Positions 35,743 through 64,000 of a stretch of 64,000 nt of DNA are shown here, one piece after another. The stretch is from Alcanivorax sp. REN37 (GTDB taxonomy: Bacteria; Pseudomonadota; Gammaproteobacteria; Pseudomonadales; Alcanivoracaceae): contig NZ_JBGCUO010000001.1 of NCBI RefSeq assembly GCF_041102775.1, positions 1,612,001-1,676,000 on the forward strand, given 5' to 3'. How positions within the stretch are numbered: the first letter of the stretch is position 1; every line of letters starts with the position of its first letter. Below the pieces are notes generated by a model, which was not told the DNA's origin, did no database searches, and saw nothing but the letters and a program-made list of their open reading frames with translations. Made by a program: the position numbers and the translations under genes.

Positions 35743-35979
35743 GGTCTTGCTCCCTACATGACTGGAATATGAATGGGTGGAATGCGGGGTAGTCTACTGA
35801 AAACCCCGGCCGTTTTCTCGCCCGATTTGCCTTGAGGTTGCGAATCCTAACCAATGCGCTTCGCTGAGGCGAGTGCCCGGCTCCCTTTACTTGCCCGCAA
35901 TCGGTGGCGACACTAGGCCCCATTCACTGCTCCGGCCTGCGGCCGGATGCCCGCCACCGCTGGCCAAGAGCTGTATTTG

Positions 35980-36807
35980 ATGGACCGACGCGTCGCCTTT
36001 TTTGTCTCCGATGGCACCGGCTTGACCGCTGAAACACTCGGTAACGCCATGCTCAGCCAATTCCAAGGCGTCGAGTTCGACACCATGACGCTGCCTTATA
36101 TCCTCTCGGAGGACGCCACCCGCCAAGCCATCGCCAAGATCAACGAGGCTGCGGACCGCTACGGCAACTGCCCGATCGTGTTCTCAAGCTTGGTGGACCG
36201 GGGTCACCGCGACCTACTCGGGCGCAGCCGCGCCGTGATTCTGGACGTGTTCCAGGCGTTCATGGGGCCGCTAGAGCAGGAATTAGGCGTGCGTTCGAGC
36301 CTCAAGGTTGGCCAGAGCCATGCTATCCACGACCCCGAGGCCTACCGGTTGCGCATCGAGGCCGTGCATTTCGCGCTCGACAACGACGACGGTGTGGGTT
36401 GGCGTCACCATTACGAAAAGGCCGACTTAATCCTGGTCGGGCTGCCGCAAGCCGGCAAGACGCCGACCAGCCTCTACTTAGCACTTCAATACGGCCTGTT
36501 CGTGGCCAACTACCCGCTCACCGAGCAGGACATCGAAGACGCCAGCCTGCCGGAGGTACTGGTGCCGTTCCAAGACAAGCTATTTGGTCTGTCGATGGAT
36601 CCGTACCGGCTAGCACTGGCACGACAAGAATTGGCGGGCGATGACCTGCAGGGCTGCTGCACCGATCACTGCACTCAAGAAACCGAAGCCGCCCGCGCGC
36701 TGTTCGAGTTCAACCAGCTCCCCAATATGGACGTCACCAAGATGTCCGTGGAAGAAATCTCCACCCGCATCCTGGCCCTCACCGGGCTCAAGCGCCGGCT
36801 GCAGTGA
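35980..36807 (+). CDS. PpsR-type regulatory kinase/phosphorylase, diverged copy
   Basis: About 275 residues of the DUF299 family, which phosphorylates (ADP-dependent) and dephosphorylates (Pi-dependent) a threonine of PEP synthase. The N-terminal motif FVSDGTGLTAE is canonical. The P-loop reads GLPQAGKTPT (154-163), where canonical copies have GVSR-x-GKTPT. The C-terminal SRYAS/QC segment is replaced by a cysteine-rich CCTDHCTQE. It is 6 nt ahead of a second, more canonical copy. The ATG at 35980 is chosen by family alignment, and an in-frame ATG at 35947 has no ribosome site. Confidence 0.85.
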   Translation: MDRRVAFFVSDGTGLTAETLGNAMLSQFQGVEFDTMTLPYILSEDATRQAIAKINEAADRYGNCPIVFSSLVDRGHRDLLGRSRAVILDVFQAFMGPLEQELGVRSSLKVGQSHAIHDPEAYRLRIEAVHFALDNDDGVGWRHHYEKADLILVGLPQAGKTPTSLYLALQYGLFVANYPLTEQDIEDASLPEVLVPFQDKLFGLSMDPYRLALARQELAGDDLQGCCTDHCTQETEAARALFEFNQLPNMDVTKMSVEEISTRILALTGLKRRLQ

Positions 36808-36813
36808 GGCACC

Positions 36814-37647
36814 ATGACCCCGTCTAAACCCGTCCGTACCGCCTTTTATGTCTCAGGTAGCACCGCCATTACCGCGGAAACGCTGGGACGCTCGATGCTG
36901 ACCCAGTTTTCCGAGTACAACTTCCGCCAGGTGACGCTGCCCTACTTGCAGAACCCTGCCCAGATTGAAGCGGCGGTACTGCGCATCAAGCTGGCAGCGG
37001 AGGAAGACGGTAGTCGCCCGATCGTGTTCTCGACGCTGACCGATCCGCTGTTGTTGAAAGAGTTGCGCCGCAGTGAGGCGCTGGTACTCGACCTGTTCGA
37101 TGCTTTCCTGGTGCCACTGGAACGCGAAATTGGCCAGCCACCGACGCTGAAGAGCGGTCAGAGCCACGCGGTGCGCGACCTCAACAGTTACCGCATTCGC
37201 GCCGATGCGGTCCACTTTGCCATGCAGAACGATGATGGTGCCCGCACTACCTATTACGACCAAGCCGACCTGATCGTAATTGGCGTGTCCCGTAGCGGTA
37301 AGACGCCGACCTGCCTTTATATGGCGATGCAATACGGCCTTTATATGGCCAACTACCCACTCACCGAAGAAGACTTCGACGACCTGCGACTGCCCAAAAG
37401 CCTGCTACCGCACCAACACAAGTTGTTTGCGCTCACCATTGGCGCTGACCGGTTAGAAGAGATTCGTCAGCAACGCCGCGGCGGCAGTCGCTACGCTTCG
37501 CGCCAACAGTGCGACATGGAAGTGCGGGCGTTCGGGGCGCTGATCTCGCGCTTCCAAATCCCGTCGCTGGAAGTGACCGAGTATTCGATCGAGGAAATCT
37601 CCTCACGTATCCTTGCCAAGACCGGCCTGCGCCGCCGCCTGTTCTGA
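36814..37647 (+). CDS. ppsR: PEP synthase regulatory protein PpsR
   Basis: A 277-residue DUF299 protein. The P-loop GVSRSGKTPT (157-166), the signatures YPLTEEDFDDLRLP, KLFALTI and SRYASRQQC, and the ending SSRILAKTGLR are canonical. The N-terminal nucleotide motif, however, reads FYVSGSTAITAE where the family has S-D-G-T. It is directly behind the other copy (6-nt gap), in one operon divergent from ppsA. By its P-loop and C-terminus this is the more likely active regulator. Confidence 0.9.
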   Translation: MTPSKPVRTAFYVSGSTAITAETLGRSMLTQFSEYNFRQVTLPYLQNPAQIEAAVLRIKLAAEEDGSRPIVFSTLTDPLLLKELRRSEALVLDLFDAFLVPLEREIGQPPTLKSGQSHAVRDLNSYRIRADAVHFAMQNDDGARTTYYDQADLIVIGVSRSGKTPTCLYMAMQYGLYMANYPLTEEDFDDLRLPKSLLPHQHKLFALTIGADRLEEIRQQRRGGSRYASRQQCDMEVRAFGALISRFQIPSLEVTEYSIEEISSRILAKTGLRRRLF

Positions 37648-37709: not shown

Positions 37710-40025
37710 TCAGCGCATCGGCTCGATGGCGATACTGGCGTGGGCTCGACCACCGGGCATCACGATGCGACCCAAGTCACCACCGCCCAGCGTGATGCGG
37801 TTGATGGCCAGCTCACTGCCCTGCCCGTTCGGCCGTGATGGCATGCCCGGCACCGCATCAAGTTCCGGCTTAGCGGTATTGCCGATCAGCAGGTCGTGGG
37901 AGAACACCAGTTTCGGCCGACCGCCGGCATCCTGATCATGTCCAACGATATCGATCTCGCCGTTGGCAAACGCCAGGTCGCCGGTCACCTGACCCAGGGT
38001 GATCGCCACATCCGGCCGGCTTGGTTCGGCAAATGAAATAAATGAGCCCATTGGCCCACCGCCGTAACCGGTGTTGCCACTATTCTGCACCGCCATCAGA
38101 CGCGCACCCCAGTGGTAGCCGAGCGCATTGCGCTGATCGTTAAGCGGTGAAAACCGGGCGTGGGCGGCCCCTTCCAAGTTGGCCTGAATCACCGCGCCGC
38201 GCACGAAACGGGGGCCGTTGCCATAGGAACCGTTGGCATCTGGCAAAATGCCGCCACCGAAGGTGGTGTGTACTGCCACTCGCACCCGCGGCGAGAACAA
38301 ATCGATCCCGCCACTGCGGTAATCGCTGCCATCCACCGGTTTCACATACAGGTTCAGGTCATCCGCCATCACCAAGAAACTGGTGCTCATCAAACCCATA
38401 CCAAGCGCGTTGCGGGTCTTGCCGGCGCCGTTGATGCTGCCGTCCATATTGGTATCAGCAATCATCAGGTGACTGCCGTGGTCCCAGTTGAAGCCTTGCT
38501 GGCCCGGCGCGTCCGGATCAAAGCTCTCCGACATCACCAACACATCGCCGCGCAGGCCCTTGTTGGGATTGTCCGGGTTACCGCCCGGATACAGCATCAG
38601 GTTGGCGTTGACGTTGGCGAAGGTGTAGATCAGCCCCCAATCAAGACTGCGAGTGACGCCGTCGGCAGTACGGTCGGAATACGCCGGGTGTGCTGCTTGC
38701 AAGGTCACCAACTCATAGCGGCCGCTCTGAGCATTCCACGCTTCTTCTATCAGGTTGATGCGACGCGAATAGGCCTGCAGGTTGCCGTCCCGAATCAGCA
38801 ACGCCAATCCCTCTTCGCCAGTGCTGGCGCCGAGCCGGCCTGGCTCCAGGTTCACATCCTGGCCGCCCCAGCGCAGCGCGTAGGCATCAGCGGCGGTGCG
38901 ATCGCCGTTGATCATGTCTAACGCAATCACCGGGAAATCATGGCCGTAGTCATGACCACCCCAAGTGGCCCAGTCGGAGATTTCAAAGCGCACACGGCGG
39001 TGGCCGTCAGCCGGAGTTTGGGAGTAGCTGGTCTCACCGAGCAGCCAACGGAACTCATTGCCCGCCGTGCTGCCGGCCGGCACATAGTTCCAGCGGGTGC
39101 TGAGGTTAATCAGTCCCGGCGTGGCAGCGCCGGCGGCGCCTTTGGCGCGCCAGAGAATTTCCGGATCCGACAGTCCGCCGAGCCAGCCGAAGTGCATCAT
39201 GCCCAAACCGCCGGCGGTGAAGTCGGGGCCACCGGTCTTGTGGAACAGGTCCACGTCCAGCACCACATCAATGACGCCGTCAGTGGCCATGCGCAGCCCT
39301 TCAGGGGTGATACCAAGGGTGCCTCGCGGCATATCCCAGCGCGCCTGCATGTTGTCGAGGATCAGGTATGCGGTATCTGGCCGGCCACCTTCCACTTGGC
39401 GGTAATACATGCGGCCATTGCGCAGTTCGCCGAACAGGCGCGTGTTCATGCCTTGGCTATTGAACAGCCCGCCCTCGCCAGCAATCTGCAAGGTGCCTTG
39501 GCCATCCAGCGCCCAACTACCGTAGGCCTGGCTGCCACCGTGGCTGAGTTCGCCGAGCATCAGACGCGCGCGCGAGCCGCCATCGGCATCCGGCTGGCCA
39601 GCAATATCGAGTTGATAGGACAGATAAGGCGTGCCGGTTTGGGCATCAGCGCCCACATCTAGGGTGTTGGTGAAGTGCACCGCGCCGGCTTGCACTTGGC
39701 CTTGTTCATCGACGTTGTAGAAACCGGGCCGGCGCTCCCCGCCGGCACCGGCAGAAGTAGCCAGTTGCAGGGTAGCTTCGTTGACCTCGCCTTCGTCAGC
39801 GACCCAGCGCAGTGAATCATAGCTGAGGCCATTATCTGGTGAGGACGCAATGTCGATGACGAGACCGTCGCGCGCTTCAATGGCGGACAGAGCAGAGTCA
39901 TCCAACGGCTCGAGTGCGTGGGCGGTGTGCACCACACCCGCAGCACTGATCAGCAAGAGGCAAGACAACGGCGTGGAGTCGCGGCCGCTGTGCTGCCATC
40001 CCCGGAACCAAAAAGAAACGCTCAC
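37710..40025 (-). CDS. Large exported FilA-like (DUF6160-type) protein
   Basis: A 771-residue exported protein with a Sec signal peptide ending about HTAHA. Directly after it comes LEPLDDSALSAIEARDG, the motif shared with three proteins at 45.8-49.1 kb. The rest is glycine- and aspartate-rich beta structure with repeated short blocks (GGLGMMHFGWLGGLSDPEILW, YGNGPRFVRGAVIQANLEGAAH) and ends with PGGRAHASIAIEPMR. I take the family to be the FilA/DUF6160 group, with moderate certainty. It is likely a surface or periplasmic structural protein, and its function is unknown. It stands alone, divergent from the sugar genes. Confidence 0.7.
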   Translation of the reverse strand: MSVSFWFRGWQHSGRDSTPLSCLLLISAAGVVHTAHALEPLDDSALSAIEARDGLVIDIASSPDNGLSYDSLRWVADEGEVNEATLQLATSAGAGGERRPGFYNVDEQGQVQAGAVHFTNTLDVGADAQTGTPYLSYQLDIAGQPDADGGSRARLMLGELSHGGSQAYGSWALDGQGTLQIAGEGGLFNSQGMNTRLFGELRNGRMYYRQVEGGRPDTAYLILDNMQARWDMPRGTLGITPEGLRMATDGVIDVVLDVDLFHKTGGPDFTAGGLGMMHFGWLGGLSDPEILWRAKGAAGAATPGLINLSTRWNYVPAGSTAGNEFRWLLGETSYSQTPADGHRRVRFEISDWATWGGHDYGHDFPVIALDMINGDRTAADAYALRWGGQDVNLEPGRLGASTGEEGLALLIRDGNLQAYSRRINLIEEAWNAQSGRYELVTLQAAHPAYSDRTADGVTRSLDWGLIYTFANVNANLMLYPGGNPDNPNKGLRGDVLVMSESFDPDAPGQQGFNWDHGSHLMIADTNMDGSINGAGKTRNALGMGLMSTSFLVMADDLNLYVKPVDGSDYRSGGIDLFSPRVRVAVHTTFGGGILPDANGSYGNGPRFVRGAVIQANLEGAAHARFSPLNDQRNALGYHWGARLMAVQNSGNTGYGGGPMGSFISFAEPSRPDVAITLGQVTGDLAFANGEIDIVGHDQDAGGRPKLVFSHDLLIGNTAKPELDAVPGMPSRPNGQGSELAINRITLGGGDLGRIVMPGGRAHASIAIEPMR

Positions 40026-44156: not shown

Positions 44157-45795
44157 GTGCGTCTCCAGCGACAAAAGGAATGTCCTCCGGGCGCACTTCA
44201 GACTCGAAGCTCTTGCGATAGGAGAACAGATACATTTGCAGATCCTGCTGCACCCAGCGATACGGATAAGAGGGCATCGGCATGTGATCGACAAACAGCG
44301 CCCGCCGCTCTGACGGATTGAAGTCCGGCTTGCCGAAACGCAGATAACTGAACATACGTTCGCCGTTGTGCTGAATGAACACCTGGCCATTGAGCATGTA
44401 ATGGAATACCAGATAGGTGACGCCGGGGTAGCCCACCGTCACGTGCGCAGGGATCTGCGCCGGATCAAGGAAGTAATAAAGCGCCGGATCGTACACCACT
44501 AACTGGTCAATGCCGGAGTCTGCAGCAAGCATCTGGTGAATGGTGTCGGCCATCGCCCTATTGCTGTCCATGTAGGCCGGCAGATAGCTAGGAAACACCC
44601 GCTCCCAGTCACCGCGATAAAGCCGCTCAACCAACCAGCCCGGCCCTTTTTCCTTCATTGCCACATGGACGGCGGTGATGCTGAGAAAATGAGACAGCTG
44701 GAGTAACAACACCAGTAGTGTGAGCGCGGCGACATAAACGGTTCTGCGAAGGCGCCAACGGGAGGCCAGCCAGTCCAATGCCGCCGCCAGCCCCAGCAGT
44801 AATAGCGGATACAGGATAAATAAGTAACGCGGCTCATAATAAGCCAGCTGCAGCGCTACTTGTGCGAGCAGGAATATCACCCACAACAGCGCGCCGGCCA
44901 CCATTGTCCGCAGCGGTGCCAGCACTTTCAGGGCGCAAGCGGGTAGCGCCAATGCCAGCAACAGGAATGAATAAGGGAACGTTTCCCACGCGTACCCGGC
45001 GTTGTATTCGATGCGGCCGAGAATCTCGCGTAGCTCCAGACGCCAGTGGCCGAAGTCACCGATGTCCGGCATTACCGCCAGCAAGAACAATAAATAGAGC
45101 ACACCGGGCGCCAAACATAGGGCTGTCAGTGCCCATGAGCGTTTCATCAACCGGAACAGCACGTAAGGAATAACGAAGAAAATACCTTCCGGCCGGATCA
45201 GCGGCATTGCTCCGAGCAACAGCGCCGCCGCTTTATGATGGCCGTGGGCCTGACTCCAGATCGTCAGGACCAGTATTAGGCCCAGCCACACTTCACCGTA
45301 GAAGCTGAGGCTAACCAGCACGAACAACGGCACGCTGCCGACCACCGCCACAGCTGCCCGCACCGCGCCCCGACGCAGCCCCAAGCGGTAGCCAGTCGAG
45401 ACCAGCAACGCCAGCGCGGTTACTGCTAAACCAGCATGCACCAGACGGGAGGTCAGCAGCTCACCGCCGGCCACAATGATGGTCAGATGTTCCAGTAGCA
45501 GGAACAGTGGCAGTGCGAAGTTGTAGTACTGCATGTCCAGCGAGCGCCAGGCCGCACGCGCGAGGAAGAAGCGGTAGGCGTCGTCACCGTAGAAGATATT
45601 GGCGCCGTCGATAAGGTCGAGCAGCCACCAACGCTCAGGACCGCTCACCCACCACGCCACGGTGAGGTAACAAACAAGAAGGGCGGCAAGGAGTATTGCC
45701 GCCCACTTTTCTTTGCGAAGAAACCGACCCACTGCCACCCCGCTACTCTTGGTCACTGCTGTGACACGTTTAGTGCCGTCAGCAGAACTTGGCAT
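44122..45795 (-). CDS. GT-C-like multi-pass membrane protein (glycosyltransferase)
   Basis: About 557 residues with some ten or more predicted membrane helices and a C-terminal extracytoplasmic domain. After helix 1 comes LIDGANIFYGDDAYRFFLARAAW, an acidic loop of the kind that forms the active site of lipid-linked-sugar GT-C enzymes. YYEPRYLFILYPLLLLGLAAALDWLA marks the mid region. Such enzymes move a sugar from undecaprenyl phosphate to an acceptor at the periplasmic face. Its start lies inside the 3' end of the preceding FilA-like gene, so it is coupled to it. Acceptor unknown. Confidence 0.72.
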   Translation of the reverse strand: MPSSADGTKRVTAVTKSSGVAVGRFLRKEKWAAILLAALLVCYLTVAWWVSGPERWWLLDLIDGANIFYGDDAYRFFLARAAWRSLDMQYYNFALPLFLLLEHLTIIVAGGELLTSRLVHAGLAVTALALLVSTGYRLGLRRGAVRAAVAVVGSVPLFVLVSLSFYGEVWLGLILVLTIWSQAHGHHKAAALLLGAMPLIRPEGIFFVIPYVLFRLMKRSWALTALCLAPGVLYLLFLLAVMPDIGDFGHWRLELREILGRIEYNAGYAWETFPYSFLLLALALPACALKVLAPLRTMVAGALLWVIFLLAQVALQLAYYEPRYLFILYPLLLLGLAAALDWLASRWRLRRTVYVAALTLLVLLLQLSHFLSITAVHVAMKEKGPGWLVERLYRGDWERVFPSYLPAYMDSNRAMADTIHQMLAADSGIDQLVVYDPALYYFLDPAQIPAHVTVGYPGVTYLVFHYMLNGQVFIQHNGERMFSYLRFGKPDFNPSERRALFVDHMPMPSYPYRWVQQDLQMYLFSYRKSFESEVRPEDIPFVAGDALEALQRGRLPD

Positions 45796-47104
45796 TGCCC
45801 CAACAGTTGGGGGCAAAGTTTTGCGCCGACAAACGCAGATCTGACAGCGGCATATCCAAATAATTGGCGGGATTGCTGAAATAGTTGGTCAAGTCAATGG
45901 TGCCCACATTGAGTGTGGTGCCGGTTAGACAACTAAGCAGGCCGCATTCTGGCGGGTTGGCGGCCAGCACATCGCTGATCGGCTGGACCAGTTGTTTTAG
46001 CACGTCGTCGGTGATTTTGATCGGATCTGATGGGGACACATCTCCGATATTGATCGGATCTTCAAATGCCAGCCACCAACCACGCTCTGCAGCGGCGGCA
46101 GCTCCAGGCCACTGAAGTGTCTGACTCTGCATAGACAATGAGAACGGGTTACTGACACCGATTTTGTGGATGTAGCCCAAGCTTTCGGAGAACTGCACGG
46201 CAGCTTTAACCCCCTTTACCTGCCCGACTACCCCTTCAGTCAACGTTATATTACCCAGCGGCGTGCCAGCAGCTACTGCCGTCAGACATGCGTTATTCAT
46301 GCCTGAGGGACATGCAATACCGATATTGCCCACGGTCGCCGTGGCGTTGAGCTCCACTGCAGTAAGTCGATTGCCAGATACCACTGTAGGTGCCGTGGTG
46401 AAGTGGGCCTGTGCCGGGTTCACTTGGACAGTGTAGTCGGTGGAAGTGAAGTCATAAGTGCCTTTCAAACCAAAGGCGTAGCTCACGATCACCCGCCCCG
46501 TCAGCGCCATATTGGTATCCGCATAGGTCATATTCCGGCGCTCGGTCATCCCGGTACCGGACACCGACTCCAGTTCCAGATAGCCACTCAAGGTGTTAAT
46601 GCCGTTAGGGGTAGCAGAGTTCTCGATCCCGAACGTCATCATGCCATCCGCCTGCTCAGCGCTGAGGCGGAAGCCGACAATCTCACGCAGCCCGGTATCC
46701 ACGCTTTCGTTAATCGCAAACTCAAAAAATGGCCGCGTCAGCACCGCCGAACAACCCGGCCGGCCACTGGTGCAATTACCGCTAAGTCCAAGATTATCGA
46801 TGTCGATATCGCAGCCTGGGCCATTCACACCGCCACAGCCGAGCTGCAGCTTGGCGATGTTGAGGTTCAGGTCCACCGCTGCATCGAGTCCCACTTTGTA
46901 GAAGTTGAGGCCGGATGAAATGCCCTGCCCCGGGCGCGAGTCCATCATCAGCAGCGCTTGGCCGGTGACGTCACCGAGCTGCTCATCGCTAAGTGCGGTC
47001 ATGCCGCTGTAATCGGGGGGGGCAGCGTGAGCAGCCAGCCCCAAGCCACTGCTTAGCAGCAGACACAGGAACAACTGAAAAACTCGGATTGAGAGATTTT
47101 TCAT
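45779..47104 (-). CDS. Exported FilA-like protein, cysteine-paired
   Basis: A 441-residue exported protein. The signal peptide ends near LAAHA. Residues 35-49 carry the family motif MTALSDEQLGDVTGQ. The rest is beta-rich with at least five close cysteine pairs (GCGGVNGPGC, NCTSGRPGC, ACPSGMNNAC, ECGLLSC, NCWGNAKFC), pointing to disulfides outside the cytoplasm. Its start is 3 nt after the stop of the gene before it, with no ribosome site of its own. The glycosyltransferase start lies inside its 3' end. The family is probably FilA/DUF6160, function unknown. Confidence 0.72.
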   Translation of the reverse strand: MKNLSIRVFQLFLCLLLSSGLGLAAHAAPPDYSGMTALSDEQLGDVTGQALLMMDSRPGQGISSGLNFYKVGLDAAVDLNLNIAKLQLGCGGVNGPGCDIDIDNLGLSGNCTSGRPGCSAVLTRPFFEFAINESVDTGLREIVGFRLSAEQADGMMTFGIENSATPNGINTLSGYLELESVSGTGMTERRNMTYADTNMALTGRVIVSYAFGLKGTYDFTSTDYTVQVNPAQAHFTTAPTVVSGNRLTAVELNATATVGNIGIACPSGMNNACLTAVAAGTPLGNITLTEGVVGQVKGVKAAVQFSESLGYIHKIGVSNPFSLSMQSQTLQWPGAAAAAERGWWLAFEDPINIGDVSPSDPIKITDDVLKQLVQPISDVLAANPPECGLLSCLTGTTLNVGTIDLTNYFSNPANYLDMPLSDLRLSAQNFAPNCWGNAKFC

Positions 47105-47107
47105 GGT

Positions 47108-47815
47108 TCAGAATCCGTACATATAGAACTTGCCGCCAAAAGCGATACCCGCTTGCGGCCCGTTGTTGTCCTGAATGCTCAGGCCCATGAAGGAGCCGAA
47201 CCGATCTTGGGTATAGCCGGGCACACCAGGGCTGTCGTACTCCACCGACAGGCGCTCGAAGCGGATGCCGAGTCGCACATCGTCATAACCACTGCTGTGT
47301 TTGGTGGCGGCGTCGTAGCTGCCGCCGGTCTCCGGGTAATACGTTTTCAGCGCCGGCATCACTTTGATATTTTCCACCGTGCAGCTGCCTTCCAGCAGGC
47401 AGGTGCCGCTCTGATCCTGGAACTTGGCCAAGTTAAGCCAGCTTTCGTAACCGGCACCGGCAGAACTGGCTTCACCCATAAACGAGGCGTCCAGCGCCAT
47501 CCGTTTCATTTGCAGCGAGGCGTAACCTTCCTTATAGACCAGCCATTCGCCAGCCAGCCCGCCGACCCGCTCGCCCTCGCCGCGCCCAGCCACCTGCCAG
47601 GTAAATAGGCAGTTCTGGTAAGAGGCATCACAAAAGTTGTCGAGCTTTTCAGCGGTAAGCGGGTCGGTGTTGAGGAAGTAGTTGAACGACAACAGCACCC
47701 CTTCCCGGCCATGTACTTCCGACAGGTCACCATCATCCAGTGCTTGTAGCGACCACGCTGGCTGCGCCAGCCACAGCGCCGGTAAGCAAACGAGTATCCA
47801 ACGGCGAAGACTCAT
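47108..47815 (-). CDS. Exported FilA-like protein, short member
   Basis: A 235-residue exported protein with a signal peptide ending AQPAWS, followed at once by LQALDDGDLSEVHGREGV, the shared motif. Two cysteine pairs (CDASYQNC, CLLEGSC) are visible. The C-terminus LSIQDNNGPQAGIAFGGKFYMYGF resembles a beta-hairpin end. The ATG overlaps the preceding stop (ATGA). It is the middle gene of three family members, all of different length, so they are not recent duplicates. Confidence 0.7.
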   Translation of the reverse strand: MSLRRWILVCLPALWLAQPAWSLQALDDGDLSEVHGREGVLLSFNYFLNTDPLTAEKLDNFCDASYQNCLFTWQVAGRGEGERVGGLAGEWLVYKEGYASLQMKRMALDASFMGEASSAGAGYESWLNLAKFQDQSGTCLLEGSCTVENIKVMPALKTYYPETGGSYDAATKHSSGYDDVRLGIRFERLSVEYDSPGVPGYTQDRFGSFMGLSIQDNNGPQAGIAFGGKFYMYGF

Positions 47816-49086
47816 TGCGGCGCCGCTCCCAAGGTGGTGATTTTCAAGTGATGGATAGTCATGCCCTCGATGCGACTGACTCCGAGGTTGGTGACATCAC
47901 CGTTGGCTCGTTGGAAATAAATACCGTTATCGGTGCTGCTGGCGAGCGGCATCTGCGCCGGGTCCCAGGTGCCCCATCGTACATAGCCATGGGTATCTGG
48001 GTTCGGGTTAGCAACTGCGCCTTTGGCGTCCAACGCGCAGTTGCCATCGCCGGGGCCGGCTCCGCAGTAGAAGTGGTTGTAGACGGCTGGGATATTCGGA
48101 ATTCGTGTCAGCTCAATAACGAAGTTGCCGTTCTGCTGCGGCTGCGACAGCGGTGTGGCGTCGGCCGCGTATTCCGAAATACCGCTGAAAGTGATGGCTT
48201 GGTAATTGAGCGTCCCCAACGGCAGGAATGCATCCACGTTGCGGAAATACATGCCTTCGTTAATTTGGAAGTTGGGTACTTCGTGCAGCGCGTTAGGGCT
48301 GTCCGGCTGCTGCGCCACCGAGAAGCGGAAGTCACCAGACAGTGCGCTCTGGTAGGTCAGCCCCAGTGTCGGATCGGCGCTGTTTGCGGTACGCAGCAAA
48401 CGCAGGATCGCAGGTTTGCGCTCTACATCGATGTAATTGTCACCGCCGGCCCATTGTTTACCGAGCGTGACCGGACTGCCGTAGATGATGGTCTGGCTTT
48501 GCAGCAGATCGGCGTTAGCGCCGCCACGATCGACTTCCAGCTCACCCCAAAACGCCCAACGCCAAGGGTCAGTACGGCTGGGCCCGATGAACTCGAATAC
48601 CGTGGGGTCGTCCGCGGAAGTGGCGTCATGCCAAACGCCTTGGTAGTCGTACCCCGCGTACTGGTACACACGTAATACAAAGGGGTCATAGACCGAGGCG
48701 AAGGCGGTGACGCCGTAGCCACCGGATGCATCTTTGCCGAGCGGGCACTCCACCCCGGAGCCGGCGCACTGGTCATTGAACCAGCTTGAACCCTGGCTAC
48801 CGCCGGAGGTCATCGACAGGCCGTAATAGCGCGCATCACCGCGCTTCCAGCCCACCGCGGCCGCTTGCGGCGTCGGTGCTGAACCAAGCAGCTCGACGTA
48901 GCTGGTCGGCGCCATGCGCAGGCTGAAGTCATCGAAGCCGAAGGCGAGACCGGCGCCGGAGACATCCGCCAGCTCCTCGTCCGGCATCGCTTGCAGACTG
49001 ATGGACGCGTGGCCGCTGGCATGGAGGCCAAGCAGGCACAGCAACAGTACGGCCTGACGCCGTACCCCCGGATAATCTCTCAACAC
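47812..49086 (-). CDS. Exported FilA-like protein, first gene of the operon
   Basis: A 424-residue exported protein that starts at GTG 49086, with GAGG 9 nt upstream. The signal peptide ends near HASGHA. Then comes LQAMPDEELADVSGAGLAF, the member closest to a classical double-glycine leader (E-L-x-x-V-S-G-A). The body is rich in tyrosine, glycine and asparagine, with cysteine pairs CAGSGVEC and CGAGPGDGNC. It begins an operon of five coupled genes. Its function is unknown. The family is probably FilA/DUF6160. Confidence 0.7.
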   Translation of the reverse strand: MLRDYPGVRRQAVLLLCLLGLHASGHASISLQAMPDEELADVSGAGLAFGFDDFSLRMAPTSYVELLGSAPTPQAAAVGWKRGDARYYGLSMTSGGSQGSSWFNDQCAGSGVECPLGKDASGGYGVTAFASVYDPFVLRVYQYAGYDYQGVWHDATSADDPTVFEFIGPSRTDPWRWAFWGELEVDRGGANADLLQSQTIIYGSPVTLGKQWAGGDNYIDVERKPAILRLLRTANSADPTLGLTYQSALSGDFRFSVAQQPDSPNALHEVPNFQINEGMYFRNVDAFLPLGTLNYQAITFSGISEYAADATPLSQPQQNGNFVIELTRIPNIPAVYNHFYCGAGPGDGNCALDAKGAVANPNPDTHGYVRWGTWDPAQMPLASSTDNGIYFQRANGDVTNLGVSRIEGMTIHHLKITTLGAAPQ

Positions 49087-58887: not shown

Positions 58888-59811
58888 TCAACGGGTGCGC
58901 ACCAACAGTGCGCCCTGCTCGCTCAACGCAGCGTCCTGCTCCGGCACCCACAGCGCCTGTGCCGCAGCGCTGTAGTCAAGGTAGAAAATCAGATAACGGT
59001 GACTCGGCTCGCGGGGCAAAGTTCCCTGTACTGACGCGTAATGGGCCCAGCTTTCCGGGTAGCGACGCGTGAACAGGTTGTTGACCTGCAACACCGGTGT
59101 GCCCTCCCCGTCCAGTACCAGCAGTTGCGGGTGGACGTACTGGCCGCCGCGCTTGAAGCTGACCAGCTCAACGTCCTTCACCTCAGGGGCCAACGCCACC
59201 ACCCGCGCCGGCAACAACCGGTCGCCTTGGCGCAAGAACGGACCTTGGCCAAGGGCGAAACGTAGGCTGTGCTCCTTGCCGGGGCGCAGTAGCGTGGCAC
59301 CCTCGCGCAGGTGCTGGCAACAGTCGGCGCGGATCGGGGTCACGGTTTCGAGGAATTCCTCGCTGTCTGGGGCCTCGATCGCCACATAGGCGGCCGCCCG
59401 CTCACGTCGAGCAGCCTGTGCCGCCGGCACATCAATGCGCTCGCGCTGCAACTGGCCGCTGGCATCGTAGTAAGTAACGAAACGGTCAGACGGGTCATCG
59501 GTTTCTGCGGTACTCCACGCCGCCGCATCCGGTGTGGATTGGGCGCCCGCTGCGGGTTGCCACAGCTCGGCAGCCAACACATCGATGTCGACCGCCTCAG
59601 GCACAGGTGCCGCGGGCTCAGGGCGGGTGGCCGGTACCGGTGCCACCTCAATGTCGGCCGGCGTGGCATCGGCCGCCGTGTTCTTGGCCGGGATTTCGCC
59701 AGTCACCAAGCGGCCGCTGGCATCGGTGTAGGCGTAAAAGCCACCGTCGCGGTCCGGGTTGCTGCACCCGGCCGCCACGGTCAGCACTGCCACCAACGCC
59801 CAGCGCTTCAT
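58888..59811 (-). CDS. filE: FilE-like lipoprotein
   Basis: A 307-residue lipoprotein with lipobox LTVAAGCSN. It has two DUF4124-like repeats, FYAYTDASGRLVTGEI (25-40) and FVTYYDASGQLQRERI (about 110-125), a proline-alanine linker between them, and a beta-rich C-terminal domain (about 180-305) resembling MalM-type periplasmic proteins. The two DASG repeats suggest cell-wall or protein binding. It shares one base with the FilD stop, so translation is coupled. Confidence 0.7.
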   Translation of the reverse strand: MKRWALVAVLTVAAGCSNPDRDGGFYAYTDASGRLVTGEIPAKNTAADATPADIEVAPVPATRPEPAAPVPEAVDIDVLAAELWQPAAGAQSTPDAAAWSTAETDDPSDRFVTYYDASGQLQRERIDVPAAQAARRERAAAYVAIEAPDSEEFLETVTPIRADCCQHLREGATLLRPGKEHSLRFALGQGPFLRQGDRLLPARVVALAPEVKDVELVSFKRGGQYVHPQLLVLDGEGTPVLQVNNLFTRRYPESWAHYASVQGTLPREPSHRYLIFYLDYSAAAQALWVPEQDAALSEQGALLVRTR

Positions 59812-61496
59812 CAGAACCGCGTCCGGTAGGCAAAGCCAAACATGTTGATGGTGGCCTTGGTTTTGATGTCGAGCCCGGCATAGGGGTTGTAGACCATGTT
59901 ATTGATGCCGGTGCAGTTGGCCGAGCAACTGGAATTGGCGGGCACGTGGTCGCGACTTTCCAGCATCGCAAAGGCGAAGTCGAACTCAGTGTCTTCACTC
60001 CAGCGGTAGCCCAAACCGACGCTGTAATAGCGCGCTTCGTTGATCGGCACCATTGGCATGCGCCGGTTGTTGGGGATCGCCGAGGCCCGCGGCTCGAAGC
60101 CGGCACGCAACTTGAGCCGGTCGTTAACGGTGAATTCGGCGCCGAAAGCCAAGTTCCAGGTGGAGCGGAAATTCAACGGGTAGGACAGCGTGTCGGAGGT
60201 GGCCCCGGGCGTGAACAATCGCGCCAGTGCCAGCGCCGCGTTACTGGAATCGAACTCGAAGTTGAACGCATCCCAGGTGCTGTAATCGGTCCACACCGCG
60301 TCCATGTTGAACTGCAGGCGCTCATGGGGCTTCACTTTGATGCCGGTCTGGAAGTGCGCCGGCATCGTGATGTCCATGTTGATGATGCCGGTGTCCTGCA
60401 GGCCCACGTAGTTGGGTACCCCCAGTACCGCCAACGCAATGGCGCCGGTAGGACTGCTGCCGATGCCATTGATGGTTTCGCGGGTGGCGTTGGAATAGGC
60501 AATATTATAGCGACCGCGCATGCGCACTTTGGTCGGCGAATGCCACACCGCGCCCCAGGCGAAGCGATCATTCGGCTCCCACAGAATGCCGAGGTTGTAA
60601 GACGGGCTAAAGCGATCGTCCATGGTCACATCCAAGCTCGCCAGACTCTTGAACGGCCCCAGCCCCTCATTCGGGCGGCAGATGCCGAACAGGATGATGT
60701 CGAGCGCAAAGTTGGACTCGCCGGCAAACGGCGCACAAATGCTTTCACTAACGATGCGCGCAAAACCAAGCAGGTCGTTGGGCGCGCGGAAATCAGTTTC
60801 CAGCCCCACCGCTTGGTAGGAGAAGCCCACCGAGGCGCCGATCGACAGCGTATCGGTGACCTGGTAGCCCACCGATGGCGACAGGTAGGTGAGCCGGTTC
60901 AGCGCCACCCGGCTACCCATGAAGTTACCCGGGTCATTTTTGTCGCGGTAGAAACCGGCCACCATTGGCAGGTAGGTGGCGGTGGCAAAGGTGAACTTGG
61001 ACCCTTCCGGGCGGATCGAGAACGACGGCACCGGTCCGGCAGCCAGTGGCCCCGGCGGCAAGTTGACGAAGTCGTTCACGAACGGCAGGTACAACGACAC
61101 CCCTTCAATGCCGCTCTTGCCGGTGCGGAAGTTCTGGCAGCGATCGCCGGTGCCAGGCGCATCGGCGCACACCACCGGATCATCGGAAAAACCAAATACG
61201 TTGTAGTCCGGCGGCGCCGAGAATTGACTCGACAGGCTTAGATCCACCGCCAGGAACTGCAAGTCCATGCGCCGACCGTCGAGCCGCGCTAGGCCGGCCG
61301 GGTTGAAGTGGATAGACATGATCCCGGGGGGATCCGCGGTCACCGCATTGCCCATGCTCATGGCGCGCACATCGACGCCGATATTGGTGGCCAGTTGTGC
61401 TTGGCTGCCGCCAGCCCATGCCAGCAGCGCGATCAGTGCCCAGCGCCAGCCACGCCGCCGAAGCGGTGTTGAGGTCGTCCTCCCCTGCCCCACCAC
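59811..61496 (-). CDS. filD: FilD-like OmpP1/FadL-family outer-membrane barrel
   Basis: A 561-residue protein of the FadL/OmpP1/TodX family. The signal peptide ends WAGGSQAQ. The hatch start LATNIGVDVRAMSMGNAVTADPPGIMSIHFNPAG is typical. The barrel ends in GFAYRTRF with a terminal phenylalanine. FadL proteins import fatty acids and other hydrophobic substrates, but this one sits in a fil-like operon and may serve export or assembly. GTG 61496 has GGGAG 7 nt upstream, next to the FilC stop. Confidence 0.8.
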   Translation of the reverse strand: MVGQGRTTSTPLRRRGWRWALIALLAWAGGSQAQLATNIGVDVRAMSMGNAVTADPPGIMSIHFNPAGLARLDGRRMDLQFLAVDLSLSSQFSAPPDYNVFGFSDDPVVCADAPGTGDRCQNFRTGKSGIEGVSLYLPFVNDFVNLPPGPLAAGPVPSFSIRPEGSKFTFATATYLPMVAGFYRDKNDPGNFMGSRVALNRLTYLSPSVGYQVTDTLSIGASVGFSYQAVGLETDFRAPNDLLGFARIVSESICAPFAGESNFALDIILFGICRPNEGLGPFKSLASLDVTMDDRFSPSYNLGILWEPNDRFAWGAVWHSPTKVRMRGRYNIAYSNATRETINGIGSSPTGAIALAVLGVPNYVGLQDTGIINMDITMPAHFQTGIKVKPHERLQFNMDAVWTDYSTWDAFNFEFDSSNAALALARLFTPGATSDTLSYPLNFRSTWNLAFGAEFTVNDRLKLRAGFEPRASAIPNNRRMPMVPINEARYYSVGLGYRWSEDTEFDFAFAMLESRDHVPANSSCSANCTGINNMVYNPYAGLDIKTKATINMFGFAYRTRF

Positions 61497-61498
61497 CG

Positions 61499-62572
61499 TC
61501 AGGCTCCCGGTTTGAGACCGGAGATGTCGATCGGCATCGACACACCCAGCAGCACGTCAGGCGAATCTTCGGTGAGACCGAAGCCGAAACTGATATTGAC
61601 GATGCGGTTGCTGGCGGTGCGCAGCCCCAGCGAGGTATTGAGTACGCTGGTGGTGGAGTCCTGCGAGCGCGCCTTGAAGCGACTGTTGCCGCGCTGGAAA
61701 GTGAACTCAGACACCATGTTGTAAGACTGCTGGTAACTGGCGCTCACCGACACTTCATAGGACAACGCGTAGGCCAACCCCATGGAGAAGTTCACCGAAT
61801 CACCCGGCGACACACGCTTCAGCACGTCAGTGCCGCGCCGTTGATTGAGCCCCGTGGCGTCGAACGCCATGGTGTAGCCCACCGAACCGAACAGCACCAC
61901 CGGGTCAATGATGCGGCTGAAGCTGACGCCGCCACTGATGGAGTAGTAGCCCTTGCCGCTGGACAGATCCTTGTTGACGTTGATCTCGTAAGGGCTGTCA
62001 CCAGTGGCGCTGGAAAAGTTGGAATACAGCGTGGTGTTGATGCCGCCCGGGCGCACCGAGAACGGCTGGTAGCGCAGCCCCATCACCACGTCACCCATGG
62101 CCGCGCGGGACAGGTCCTTTTGGGTGTCGTACTTGTACATCAGCGGCAGACTGGCGGTGAACGTCAGGTTGTCGCGCAGACCGTAATCCACTGACAGGCC
62201 GGTAGTAAAAGCATGCTCGGCATCATTCTCGATGCGGAAGCGGTTGATGCTGCCAGAGCTTTCATCGATCGCAATGTCGATGGTGTCATTGCGGTAGTAA
62301 GAGTAATCCGATGACCAGTAGAGCGACATGCGGCCACGCGGCAACAGCGAGTACTGTTTCTCGCTGGCGGTGAACACCTCTTCCAAGTTGGATTCCTGGC
62401 TGACGTCGCCTTCTCGCTGCTGCAGCGCTTCACGCGCGGCGTCGGAGCGAGTGTCCTGTTCCACGTCAGCGGTTTGGGCCCACACCGGCGCCGCCAGTGC
62501 CAGCCCGGTAATCAGTCCCAAAGTACGGTGTGTTGCAGTGGTTCCCCGGATCAAAGAAAAGCCTGCGCTCAT
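61499..62572 (-). CDS. filC: FilC-like outer-membrane barrel
   Basis: A 357-residue exported protein. The signal peptide ends LAAPVWAQ. A short helical charged segment (VEQDTRSDAAREALQQREG) precedes a beta-barrel with alternating strands (YGLRDNLTFTASLPLMYKYD, YKYDTQKDLSRAAMGDVVMG). It resembles transporter/porin-like barrels such as the phenol-degradation MetA type. The gene order points to FilC. The ATG at 62572 has only a weak GAG upstream. It ends 2 nt before the FilD start. Confidence 0.7.
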   Translation of the reverse strand: MSAGFSLIRGTTATHRTLGLITGLALAAPVWAQTADVEQDTRSDAAREALQQREGDVSQESNLEEVFTASEKQYSLLPRGRMSLYWSSDYSYYRNDTIDIAIDESSGSINRFRIENDAEHAFTTGLSVDYGLRDNLTFTASLPLMYKYDTQKDLSRAAMGDVVMGLRYQPFSVRPGGINTTLYSNFSSATGDSPYEINVNKDLSSGKGYYSISGGVSFSRIIDPVVLFGSVGYTMAFDATGLNQRRGTDVLKRVSPGDSVNFSMGLAYALSYEVSVSASYQQSYNMVSEFTFQRGNSRFKARSQDSTTSVLNTSLGLRTASNRIVNISFGFGLTEDSPDVLLGVSMPIDISGLKPGA

Positions 62573-62616
62573 GGTCACGTCTCGTTTTAAAGGCCGCAAA
62601 GTGGGTCTGACGCCCA

Positions 62617-63429
62617 TTATTTGCGCCGGTAATAGGTACGGGTCGGGATATTGATCACTCGCTCGACACCATGGCGGTCTTCCGTGAGTACCGGCACCAG
62701 AGTGCTGGCGCGATCGGCCCACTGTTCCATGCTGCGGGTGAATACTGGAAAGTCTTGGAACGCCATCCGATTAATGGTGCGCTCGTCAATGGTGCGCAGC
62801 TCGTAATCCGATAGCGCCAGCCCCTGGTGCGATTCGCCCTCGTGCGGGAACACAATGAACACCACGTTCTGATCCCAGATTTCCTCAAAGGCGACTTCCG
62901 AGAAACTCATGTTGCCGAGCGCCGGATCGGCCACATAAAAGTGACCGTTGCGCCATTCTTTCAGCACCACAAAGTGTTTGAAGCCGGCGTAGGAGATCGG
63001 CACGATCGCCGGATGTTCTAGCGTGCGCAGGTCTTCCAGCTGGGCGCGGAAACCACCGCTGTTAAAACCTAGCACGGAGGTGAGGCGGCGCATGTCGAGC
63101 AGTGAGAAGCCACGGCGTTCGACGATTTTCTCGGTCTCACCGAAGCGCAGCAGGCCTTCCATCACTTCCCGCTCGTTGTACTGCCGGCCCAAATAACCAT
63201 TGAGAACCGTGGTCAACGCAGCAGAGCCGCAGGAGTAATCGTAGGCTTGGCGTACCACATTGCGATAACGGAATTCAGATACCGGCTGGACCACGACACC
63301 GCGTTCGTGCACCACGCCGGAAGGAACAGGATGATCATAGAGAACGGTGCCCTGGGGATGTGTCTCCACCACGGCCACCTCGTTGGCAGCGAAGAATACC
63401 AGCGCTGCACCCAGAATGGTCGTCAACAT
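62617..63429 (-). CDS. filB: FilB-like C39-type cysteine peptidase
   Basis: A 270-residue protein with an N-terminal hydrophobic segment (residues 1-16) that suggests export or anchoring. The C39 peptidase domain is complete: Q61 (oxyanion glutamine) and C67 in RQAYDYSCGSAALTTVL with the classical Q-x5-C spacing, H152 in AGFKHFVVLK, and D168 in FYVADPALGNMSF. C39 enzymes normally cut double-glycine leaders and are usually fused to ABC transporters, but this one is free-standing. In Acinetobacter the matching gene is called filB. Its substrates may be FilA and the FilA-like proteins in this window. AAAGGG precedes the ATG. Confidence 0.82.
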   Translation of the reverse strand: MLTTILGAALVFFAANEVAVVETHPQGTVLYDHPVPSGVVHERGVVVQPVSEFRYRNVVRQAYDYSCGSAALTTVLNGYLGRQYNEREVMEGLLRFGETEKIVERRGFSLLDMRRLTSVLGFNSGGFRAQLEDLRTLEHPAIVPISYAGFKHFVVLKEWRNGHFYVADPALGNMSFSEVAFEEIWDQNVVFIVFPHEGESHQGLALSDYELRTIDERTINRMAFQDFPVFTRSMEQWADRASTLVPVLTEDRHGVERVINIPTRTYYRRK

Positions 63430-63638: not shown

Positions 63639-64000
63639 TTATTTACCCGCCACAGTGATGTTGGTGCCGTTCAGGGTCAGACCACCAACGTAAACGTTGC
63701 CGATGCTGGCCGCCGTGCCGGAAGCGCCGAGGCTCACTTTGTCCAGTGATACCAAGCCGACGCTACCGTTCAGGCCGATAGTCAGGCCTTCCGGGTTGCT
63801 GCCCGCGCCATCATTGATGGAGATGGACGTGCCGGTGATGTCGAGGTTAGCAATCTTGATCTCGCCAACGCCCAGCTTGCCACCGCCGCCCGCGTCGTTC
63901 AGGCCGAAGTTGTTGATGGTGATATTGCCGACGTTACCATCGGTGATCGCCACCAGGTTCTCAGCCGCAGCACCCAGCTGAACTTCCAGACCCAGCGAGC
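63639..64000 (-). CDS. filA: FilA-like repetitive surface protein, C-terminal end
   Basis: The last 120 or so residues. The start lies beyond the window. It is glycine-, isoleucine- and asparagine-rich, with short beta-strand repeats of about 20-25 residues: VGNITINNFGLN, LGVGEIKIANLDITGTSISI, VGLVSLDKVSLGA, IGNVYVGGLTLNGTNITV. The strand-turn-strand pattern looks like a beta-solenoid or stacked beta-sheet. It ends TVAGK. The position ahead of the C39 peptidase and outer-membrane genes matches FilA, the putative structural subunit. Whether it carries the family N-terminal motif cannot be seen here. Confidence 0.7.
   Translation of the reverse strand, partial: SLGLEVQLGAAAENLVAITDGNVGNITINNFGLNDAGGGGKLGVGEIKIANLDITGTSISINDGAGSNPEGLTIGLNGSVGLVSLDKVSLGASGTAASIGNVYVGGLTLNGTNITVAGK

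Follow-up and report, generated by a model that had tools for sequence, protein, structure and literature searches.

C39 cysteine peptidases and the double-glycine leaders that they read are familiar from systems such as PCAT1, LahT and ComA, in which the peptidase is fused to an ATP-binding cassette (ABC) transporter. According to the cited portions of the structural work (PMC6363468, PMC6959990), the LahT C39 domain receives leader positions -4, -7 and -12 in a hydrophobic groove; Lys or Asp abolished processing at -4 and strongly impaired it at -7, position -8 was dispensable for LahT150, the same -7/-12 knot recurs in PCAT1, and described sites combine Gly, Ala or Ser at -1 with a very narrow cleft. 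A second arrangement is the Fap system of Pseudomonas, for which the cited part of PMC5557850 describes export by the general secretory (Sec) route together with FapD, a periplasmic C39 protease that is itself Sec-exported, and FapF, a channel in the outer membrane, and reports that FapC secretion needs the active-site Cys of FapD. FapE alone among the Fap proteins is given as completely processed at its N-terminus, with GG and GA motifs noted in it (PMC5557850 and PMC6173800, in the sections cited), and a 2025 review names the FapE N-terminus and FapF as the presumed targets of FapD processing. Here we analyse 64,000 nucleotides of the Alcanivorax sp. REN37 genome (contig NZ_JBGCUO010000001.1, positions 1,612,001 to 1,676,000; hereafter the window), in which four Sec-type proteins, P0001 to P0004, carry a leader in the C39 register behind their signal peptides, and a fil locus encodes a free-standing C39 peptidase, FilB. 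We consider it likely that these four proteins, like FilA, are exported by a route that uses two signals: Sec, then a leader addressed to FilB, then exit through the outer-membrane channel FilC.

A first-pass annotation of the window had proposed that four exported proteins share a double-glycine-like motif directly behind their Sec signals. All four are present on the minus strand where it placed them (Table 1), with motif segments identical letter for letter. The motif occurs in each, except that P0001 has Ala-Arg rather than Gly-x at -2/-1, and it does follow the signal, though in P0002 (45779-47104) a longer spacer lies between the two. In open frames of at least 100 aa (47,954 residues), the pattern [LM].D..L..[VI].[GA] occurs five times: four are P0001 to P0004, each preceded by a hydrophobic stretch, and the fifth, at 1441 on the minus strand, lacks one. 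Three hundred shuffles gave a mean of 0.58 occurrences and a maximum of 4. FilA, whose leader lies just beyond the window, is the fifth leader-bearing protein of the genome (3.02 Mb, 99.7% complete), and the DUF6160 profile (PF19657) at E<=10 matches precisely these five proteins. FilA is the best match and P0001 (37710-40025) the sole other above the cut-off, the remaining three being weak (E 0.007, 0.01 and 0.37).

Among 72 non-redundant leader rows, Leu or Met occupies -7 in all 72, Gly occupies -2 in 68, Asp -10 in 58 and Val -4 in 54; upstream, Ala stands at -17 in 50 and a small residue at -19 in 65, and the rows show a signal peptide with an AxA-type site just before the motif (signal peptides were assessed by eye and hydropathy throughout). 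The rows were selected on positions -15, -12, -10, -7, -4 and -2 and a hydrophobic stretch, so conservation at those positions, including the hydrophobic -12, -7 and -4 and the Gly at -2 that characterise double-glycine leaders, is partly built in. Position -1 formed no part of that pattern, although the profile searches that supplied the loci did cover it. With 3.7 bits (Gln in 60/72, Ala in 8/72) it is more conserved than any other column, and the next position drops to 1.3 bits. Glu at -8, the ComA consensus, is found in 27 rows, with Ala in 20 and Asp in 10. The -12/-7/-4/-2 register is thus shared with the solved LahT and PCAT1 leaders, as the annotation had supposed.

What follows the leader is highly variable. 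When the parts behind the motif of 81 proteins (85 frames minus 4 chance frames, one protein being counted twice as a fragment and a longer piece) were clustered by BLAST at E 1e-3, they fell into 28 clusters, 17 of them singletons, and the five proteins of the Alcanivorax genome belong to five different body clusters. Leader proteins of genomes G138 and G251 are spread over many contigs, which rules out a leader confined to the fil locus.

The annotation had credited FilB with a full C39 site, and all four residues (Q61, C67, H152 and D168) are there and invariant in a 40-row FilB alignment. The protein scores 316 bits against the FilB model NF050078, 67 bits (2e-18) against PF03412 and 115 bits against the FapD model NF058616. 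In its AlphaFold2 (AF2) model, blocks of residues 51-210 have a predicted local distance difference test score (pLDDT) of 80-94, and Foldseek returns PCAT1, ComA and LahT as the nearest solved structures, with TMt 0.75-0.83 against the isolated ComA, PCAT1 and LahT peptidase domains. FilB thus has both the catalytic Cys-His-Asp with Gln and the fold of the C39 family; alignment with PCAT1 gave no fixed set of leader-groove residues in FilB. In the named-genome scan its closest named relatives are in Alcanivoracaceae, and peptidases of its class were found in Alcanivoracaceae, Pseudomonas, Acinetobacter, Marinobacter and other genomes.

Leader and peptidase travel together across genomes, as the annotation had predicted. 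In a class-level sample of 321 genomes, six match NF050078 at 211.6 bits or more, and 34 others, which we call FapD-type, at 130.5 bits or less. DUF6160 matches (E<=1e-3) occur in 6/6 FilB genomes and in none of the 315 others (Fisher p 7e-13), a result that is independent, as the Pfam profile was not built here. The order-level sample comprised 293 genomes, 38 of them with FilB called at 160 bits or more, and our leader profile A2 (40 positions, built from 43 segments) matched at E<=0.01 in 37 of these against 10 of the 255 others (p 1.5e-36, kinship not corrected for). The bit cut-offs were chosen after a score gap had been seen (161 against 125 bits in the order sample), and because G000, G007 and named relatives contributed segments to A2, the profile and that sample are not wholly independent. 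Since 31 of the 43 A2 rows come from the six FilB genomes of the class sample (a first look took at most 23 candidates per genome), their A2 matches (4, 7, 5, 17, 5 and 21) are read as candidate cargo, not as a test of association. Fourteen other class genomes have one weak match each; several of these cover the signal peptide only, and three are in FapD-type genomes. Overall, A2 matches range from 2 to 21 per FilB genome.

The sole FilB genome without an A2 match, G375, has a gene for a leader protein (VDDSQLSEVDGQ) roughly 0.9 kb away from filB, with an ambiguous base in the signal peptide; the sole leader-only genome with E <5e-4, G322, is a 75%-complete bin in which the contig ends inside filC, where filB would adjoin. 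The ambiguous base and the incomplete bin are the likely explanations of these two cases. The other nine leader-only genomes of the order sample comprise G462, a 65%-complete bin with a partial FilB of 88 bits, and eight with single matches at E 9e-4 to 0.0099. Gain and loss run in parallel in three groups, whose genera may have further members among negatives that were not listed. In the family of the window, leader and FilB are both present in eight genomes and both missing from four, of one genus; genus g266 has nine genomes with the pair and one, G339, with neither; and genus g296 has two with the pair and four listed ones with neither. Genomes with only a FapD-type C39 mostly do not carry the same GQ leader: A2 found none in 16 such genomes of the order sample, and in the class sample a single match in 3/34 (G154, G172 and G241). 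The G172 match is to a small Sec protein that has an AG end and is encoded upstream of the C39 gene, at a distance of about 0.5 kb.

Under the reading we favour, each protein would first be carried by Sec into the periplasm, where signal peptidase, to judge from the signal peptides, cuts the AxA-type site and exposes the segment [LM]xx[ML]xDxx[LM]xxVxGQ. FilB, itself Sec-exported or membrane-anchored, would then use its C39 groove to bind the exposed segment by -12, -7 and -4, probably cutting it off at or next to Gly-Gln, and the protein, by analogy with Fap, would leave through the FapF-like channel FilC. Recognition of the leader by FilB after Sec export is strongly supported, and its removal by FilB is probable. 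One FilB would serve between two and about twenty candidate cargo proteins per genome, mostly unrelated to one another. Such a route shares with PCAT1, LahT and ComA the hydrophobic -12, -7 and -4, the Gly at -2, the C39 catalytic residues and the peptidase fold. It differs from them in that the leader stands behind a Sec signal, often on large proteins, that -1 is mostly Gln, and that the peptidase is a free-standing protein of 270 aa outside the cytoplasm rather than part of an ABC transporter.

The likeness to Fap extends to Sec-exported substrates, a Sec-exported periplasmic C39 enzyme and a channel encoded alongside. FilB and FilC match the FapD and FapF models at 115 of the 330 and 66 of the 700 bits set as cut-offs, which makes them relatives and not members; FilB has its own tail and subfamily, and Fil leaders are common to several or many mostly unrelated proteins and end mostly in GQ, whereas those of FapE end in RG[RKG]. 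The register itself recurs in proteins at the fapE position. FapE was identified by position only, Sec-type open reading frames (ORFs) being sought around FapD-type or related C39 genes at 37 loci. Among 24 ORFs so found, 23 have the loose and 18 the strict register; in 500 shuffles the strict register averaged 1.5 of 24 and never exceeded 6. Thirteen of the 37 loci had no ORF under this rule, and in three of them (L226, L230 and L231) a FapE with the motif is visible. Under a matrix built from Fil leaders only, the motif outscores every other window of the protein in 23 of 26 FapE-position proteins, these 26 being those in which the motif had already been seen. The motif is put forward as a candidate recognition sequence for FapD, and FapD probably acts on FapE as FilB would on Fil leaders. 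Its -1 residue is Arg, Lys or Gly; with Arg or Lys there, a tryptic digest would not separate a FapD cut after -1 from trypsin. At L206-L242, FapE-position proteins and some small Sec proteins upstream carry the register with the ends RG[GRK], NGA or SGR. Small Sec proteins near other C39 genes, at L243 (731 and 1694, plus strand) and L238, have leader-like ends in which -2 is Ala and -1 is Gly, e.g. MNEAQMDKITAG, which suggests a third leader type.

FilB may also carry an imitation of the leader. Each of the 80 named FilB proteins contains, C-terminal to its C39 domain, the sequence [LIVM]x[DEN]x[DE][LM]R; x[VI] and acidic residues almost always come next, with an acidic residue at the position of -2 in 40/40 aligned rows. 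Scored with a matrix built from Fil leaders (positions -12 to -4), it is the top leader-like window of FilB in 75 of the 80 and among the top three in all of them, the 80 being related to one another and so not independent events; shuffled tails reached its median score in 15/2000. Speculatively, this look-alike without the Gly occupies the enzyme's own groove until a substrate arrives, as autoinhibition or docking. The AF2 model gives no support to such docking and counts against this part of the scheme: residues 195-215 are drawn as coil, not helix, and block pLDDT falls from 81 (201-210) to 59 (211-220). Loci L026, L030, L015 and L023 were the examples examined for conserved tail sequences, and several FapD-type tails likewise end in a similar [IL]x[DN]AELxx[FY]GF stretch.

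A number of observations weigh against the two-signal route or parts of it. Its leaders mostly lack the Gly-Gly, Gly-Ala or Gly-Ser end of C39 substrates, and with Gln at -1 where a narrow cleft otherwise receives Gly, Ala or Ser, a cut after the Gly, or binding without cutting, becomes possible. FilC was found in 12/12 genomes tested, so co-occurrence cannot assign the leader to FilB over FilC. Near filB, no leader ORF was found at 25 of 80 named loci, 18 of them in Marinobacter. Leader-only genomes at E<=0.01 (10/255 and 14/315) exceed the roughly three expected in each sample, and the three single matches in FapD-only genomes of the class sample point the same way. On the Fap side, the cited part of PMC5557850 finds canonical C39 sequences missing from Fap proteins, discusses FapF as another possible FapD target and leaves that target open; it also records no FapE peptides from the first ~70 residues, and the motif of the Pseudomonas-type FapE (L227) ends near residue 40. 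No clear motif was seen by eye in FapB and FapC of loci L226-L231, and shuffled FapE sequences reach the matrix score of the site in 291/2600, so that this score alone is not decisive.

Three other explanations were weighed. The leader might be a post-Sec targeting tag, bound by FilB as a docking domain or by the periplasmic part of FilC and routed to the channel uncut. Certain type I systems do employ non-proteolytic C39-like domains as chaperones or for docking, according to the sections of PMC5557850 and PMC6173800 cited, and the poor fit of Gln or Arg at -1 to a canonical cut and the constant presence of FilC are both in keeping with it; yet the catalytic residues of FilB are invariant, FapD needs its active-site Cys for secretion, and conservation collapses after -1 as it would at a cleavage site, and we regard an uncut tag as unlikely. 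The leader could instead be the first structural element of a DUF6160/FilA fold, with no proteolysis and with FilB co-occurring only as a fellow member of the fil operon. The profile does run past the motif in FilA (1-95) and in a few matches elsewhere (to positions 67-94), and a strand-like pattern continues in many bodies. In G138, G251 and G010, however, most matches stop at about position 45 of 96, ahead of short and mostly unrelated bodies, the matches of the first two are scattered over many contigs, and the motif has the register of C39 leaders and is met again next to FapD, in proteins at the FapE position, all of which makes a fold element very improbable. That short N-termini of biased composition should resemble a leader by chance finds some footing in the brevity of the pattern and in the weak matches of FilB-negative genomes, but the shuffles of the window and of the fapE-position ORFs, with the presence/absence tables, rule this out for practical purposes.

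The two-signal route thus remains the reading we favour, and part of it is not new: C39 leaders, Fap as a union of Sec, periplasmic C39 and outer-membrane channel, and the names FilA to FilF and DUF6160 all predate this work. The annotation's remark that no such pairing had been described is therefore too broad, as Fap already joins these three elements, and holds for the leader motif, which the literature searched does not mention. Nor did that literature yield a report of the leader in Sec-exported proteins, of its co-occurrence with FilB, of its use by many mostly unrelated proteins per genome, of the same register in FapE, or of the FilB tail mimic. DUF6160, catalogued as a family of unknown function and reportedly mentioned in one paper, PMC11687729, has a signal peptide and Fil leader as its first ~45 positions, which suggests that what its members have in common is in large part the leader and not a fold. 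The leader would give FilB/FapD-class peptidases a concrete, testable sequence, and a simple rule for finding the cargo of the FilB route across Alcanivoracaceae, Pseudomonas, Acinetobacter, Marinobacter and others; a second address tag on exported proteins, resembling the leaders of small antibiotics, points to a little-known secretion route. Whether this amounts to a general secretion pathway, in which Sec delivers up to about 20 cargo proteins to a periplasmic C39 peptidase of the FilB/FapD class for exit through FilC or FapF, FapD cuts FapE and a tail mimic restrains the peptidase, we hold to be an even question.

The window's features are collected in Table 1. The genes filA, filB, filC and filD are consecutive, in that order. 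The NCBIfam models FilA to FilF describe what we take to be the Fil 'putative pilus' operon of Acinetobacter, and the paper most concerned with it is said to treat FilF as a vaccine candidate. The window's FilB, FilC and FilD fall short of the model cut-offs (316 of 475, 374 of 630 and 735 of 970 bits). FilD is an unlikely partner of the leader, as six of the 12 FilC-bearing genomes tested gave no FilD match (G138, G251, G010, G336, G375 and G462); all six have a FilB match, which in G462 is the partial one, five have leader matches, and G375 has the leader protein found by reading. With FilC in all 12 and FilD not found in half, the predicted core set is FilB, FilC and the leader proteins. 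No leader was seen on reading the N-terminus of the FilE-like lipoprotein (58888-59811).

Table 1. Coordinates of the leader proteins, their leader cores and the fil genes in the window
Feature	Coordinates	Strand	Remarks
Leader-bearing Sec protein P0001, 771 aa	37710..40025	minus	N-terminus matches FilA model NF050077, 35 bits, residues 21-135
Leader core of P0001, LDDSALSAIEAR	39870..39905	minus	Divergent end Ala-Arg
Leader-bearing Sec protein P0002, 441 aa	45779..47104	minus	
Leader core of P0002, LSDEQLGDVTGQ	46958..46993	minus	
Leader-bearing Sec protein P0003, 235 aa	47108..47815	minus	
Leader core of P0003, LDDGDLSEVHGR	47705..47740	minus	
Leader-bearing Sec protein P0004, 424 aa	47812..49086	minus	
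Leader core of P0004, MPDEELADVSGA	48952..48987	minus	Same leader in homologues of other genomes
FilE-like lipoprotein	58888..59811	minus	Weak FilE_C match, 20 bits
FilD, FadL/OmpP1-family barrel, probably not core	59811..61496	minus	NF050080, 735 bits
FilC, FapF-like outer-membrane channel	61499..62722	minus	NF050079, 374 bits; FapF NF058560, 66 bits
FilB, free-standing C39 cysteine peptidase, 270 aa, N-terminal Sec signal or anchor	62617..63429	minus	
Leader-like tail stretch of FilB, residues 206-216 (LSDYELRTIDE)	62782..62814	minus	Acidic where the leader has Gly
filA, 3' part; gene crosses the window end	63639..64000	minus	Leader LDDTALSGVTGQ just past the window end

Beyond the window, the named FilB loci analysed are 80 of 557 confirmed ones, and filA-like ORFs adjoin filB in most of these 80. 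A strict search for a signal peptide plus motif within the fetched flanks of filB succeeded at 54 of the 80, with 65 matches; six of these resemble chance frames, among them the single match at locus L115, and at L073 and L134 a leader ORF is visible by eye in addition. At L090, L098, L103 and 15 other Marinobacter loci, filB has no recognisable adjoining filA.

The P0002/P0004-type gene group (45779-49086, minus strand) forms a second conserved cluster separate from the fil operon. Relatives of the 424-aa P0004 and the 441-aa P0002 stand next to each other in other genomes (L174, L189 and L196), and further leader proteins of ~150 and ~760 aa lie close by (G507 C16). Elsewhere in the window, two strong tandem matches to Kinase-PPPase (PF03618), at 35947-36807 and 36814-37647 on the plus strand, stand beside a PEP synthase-like gene.

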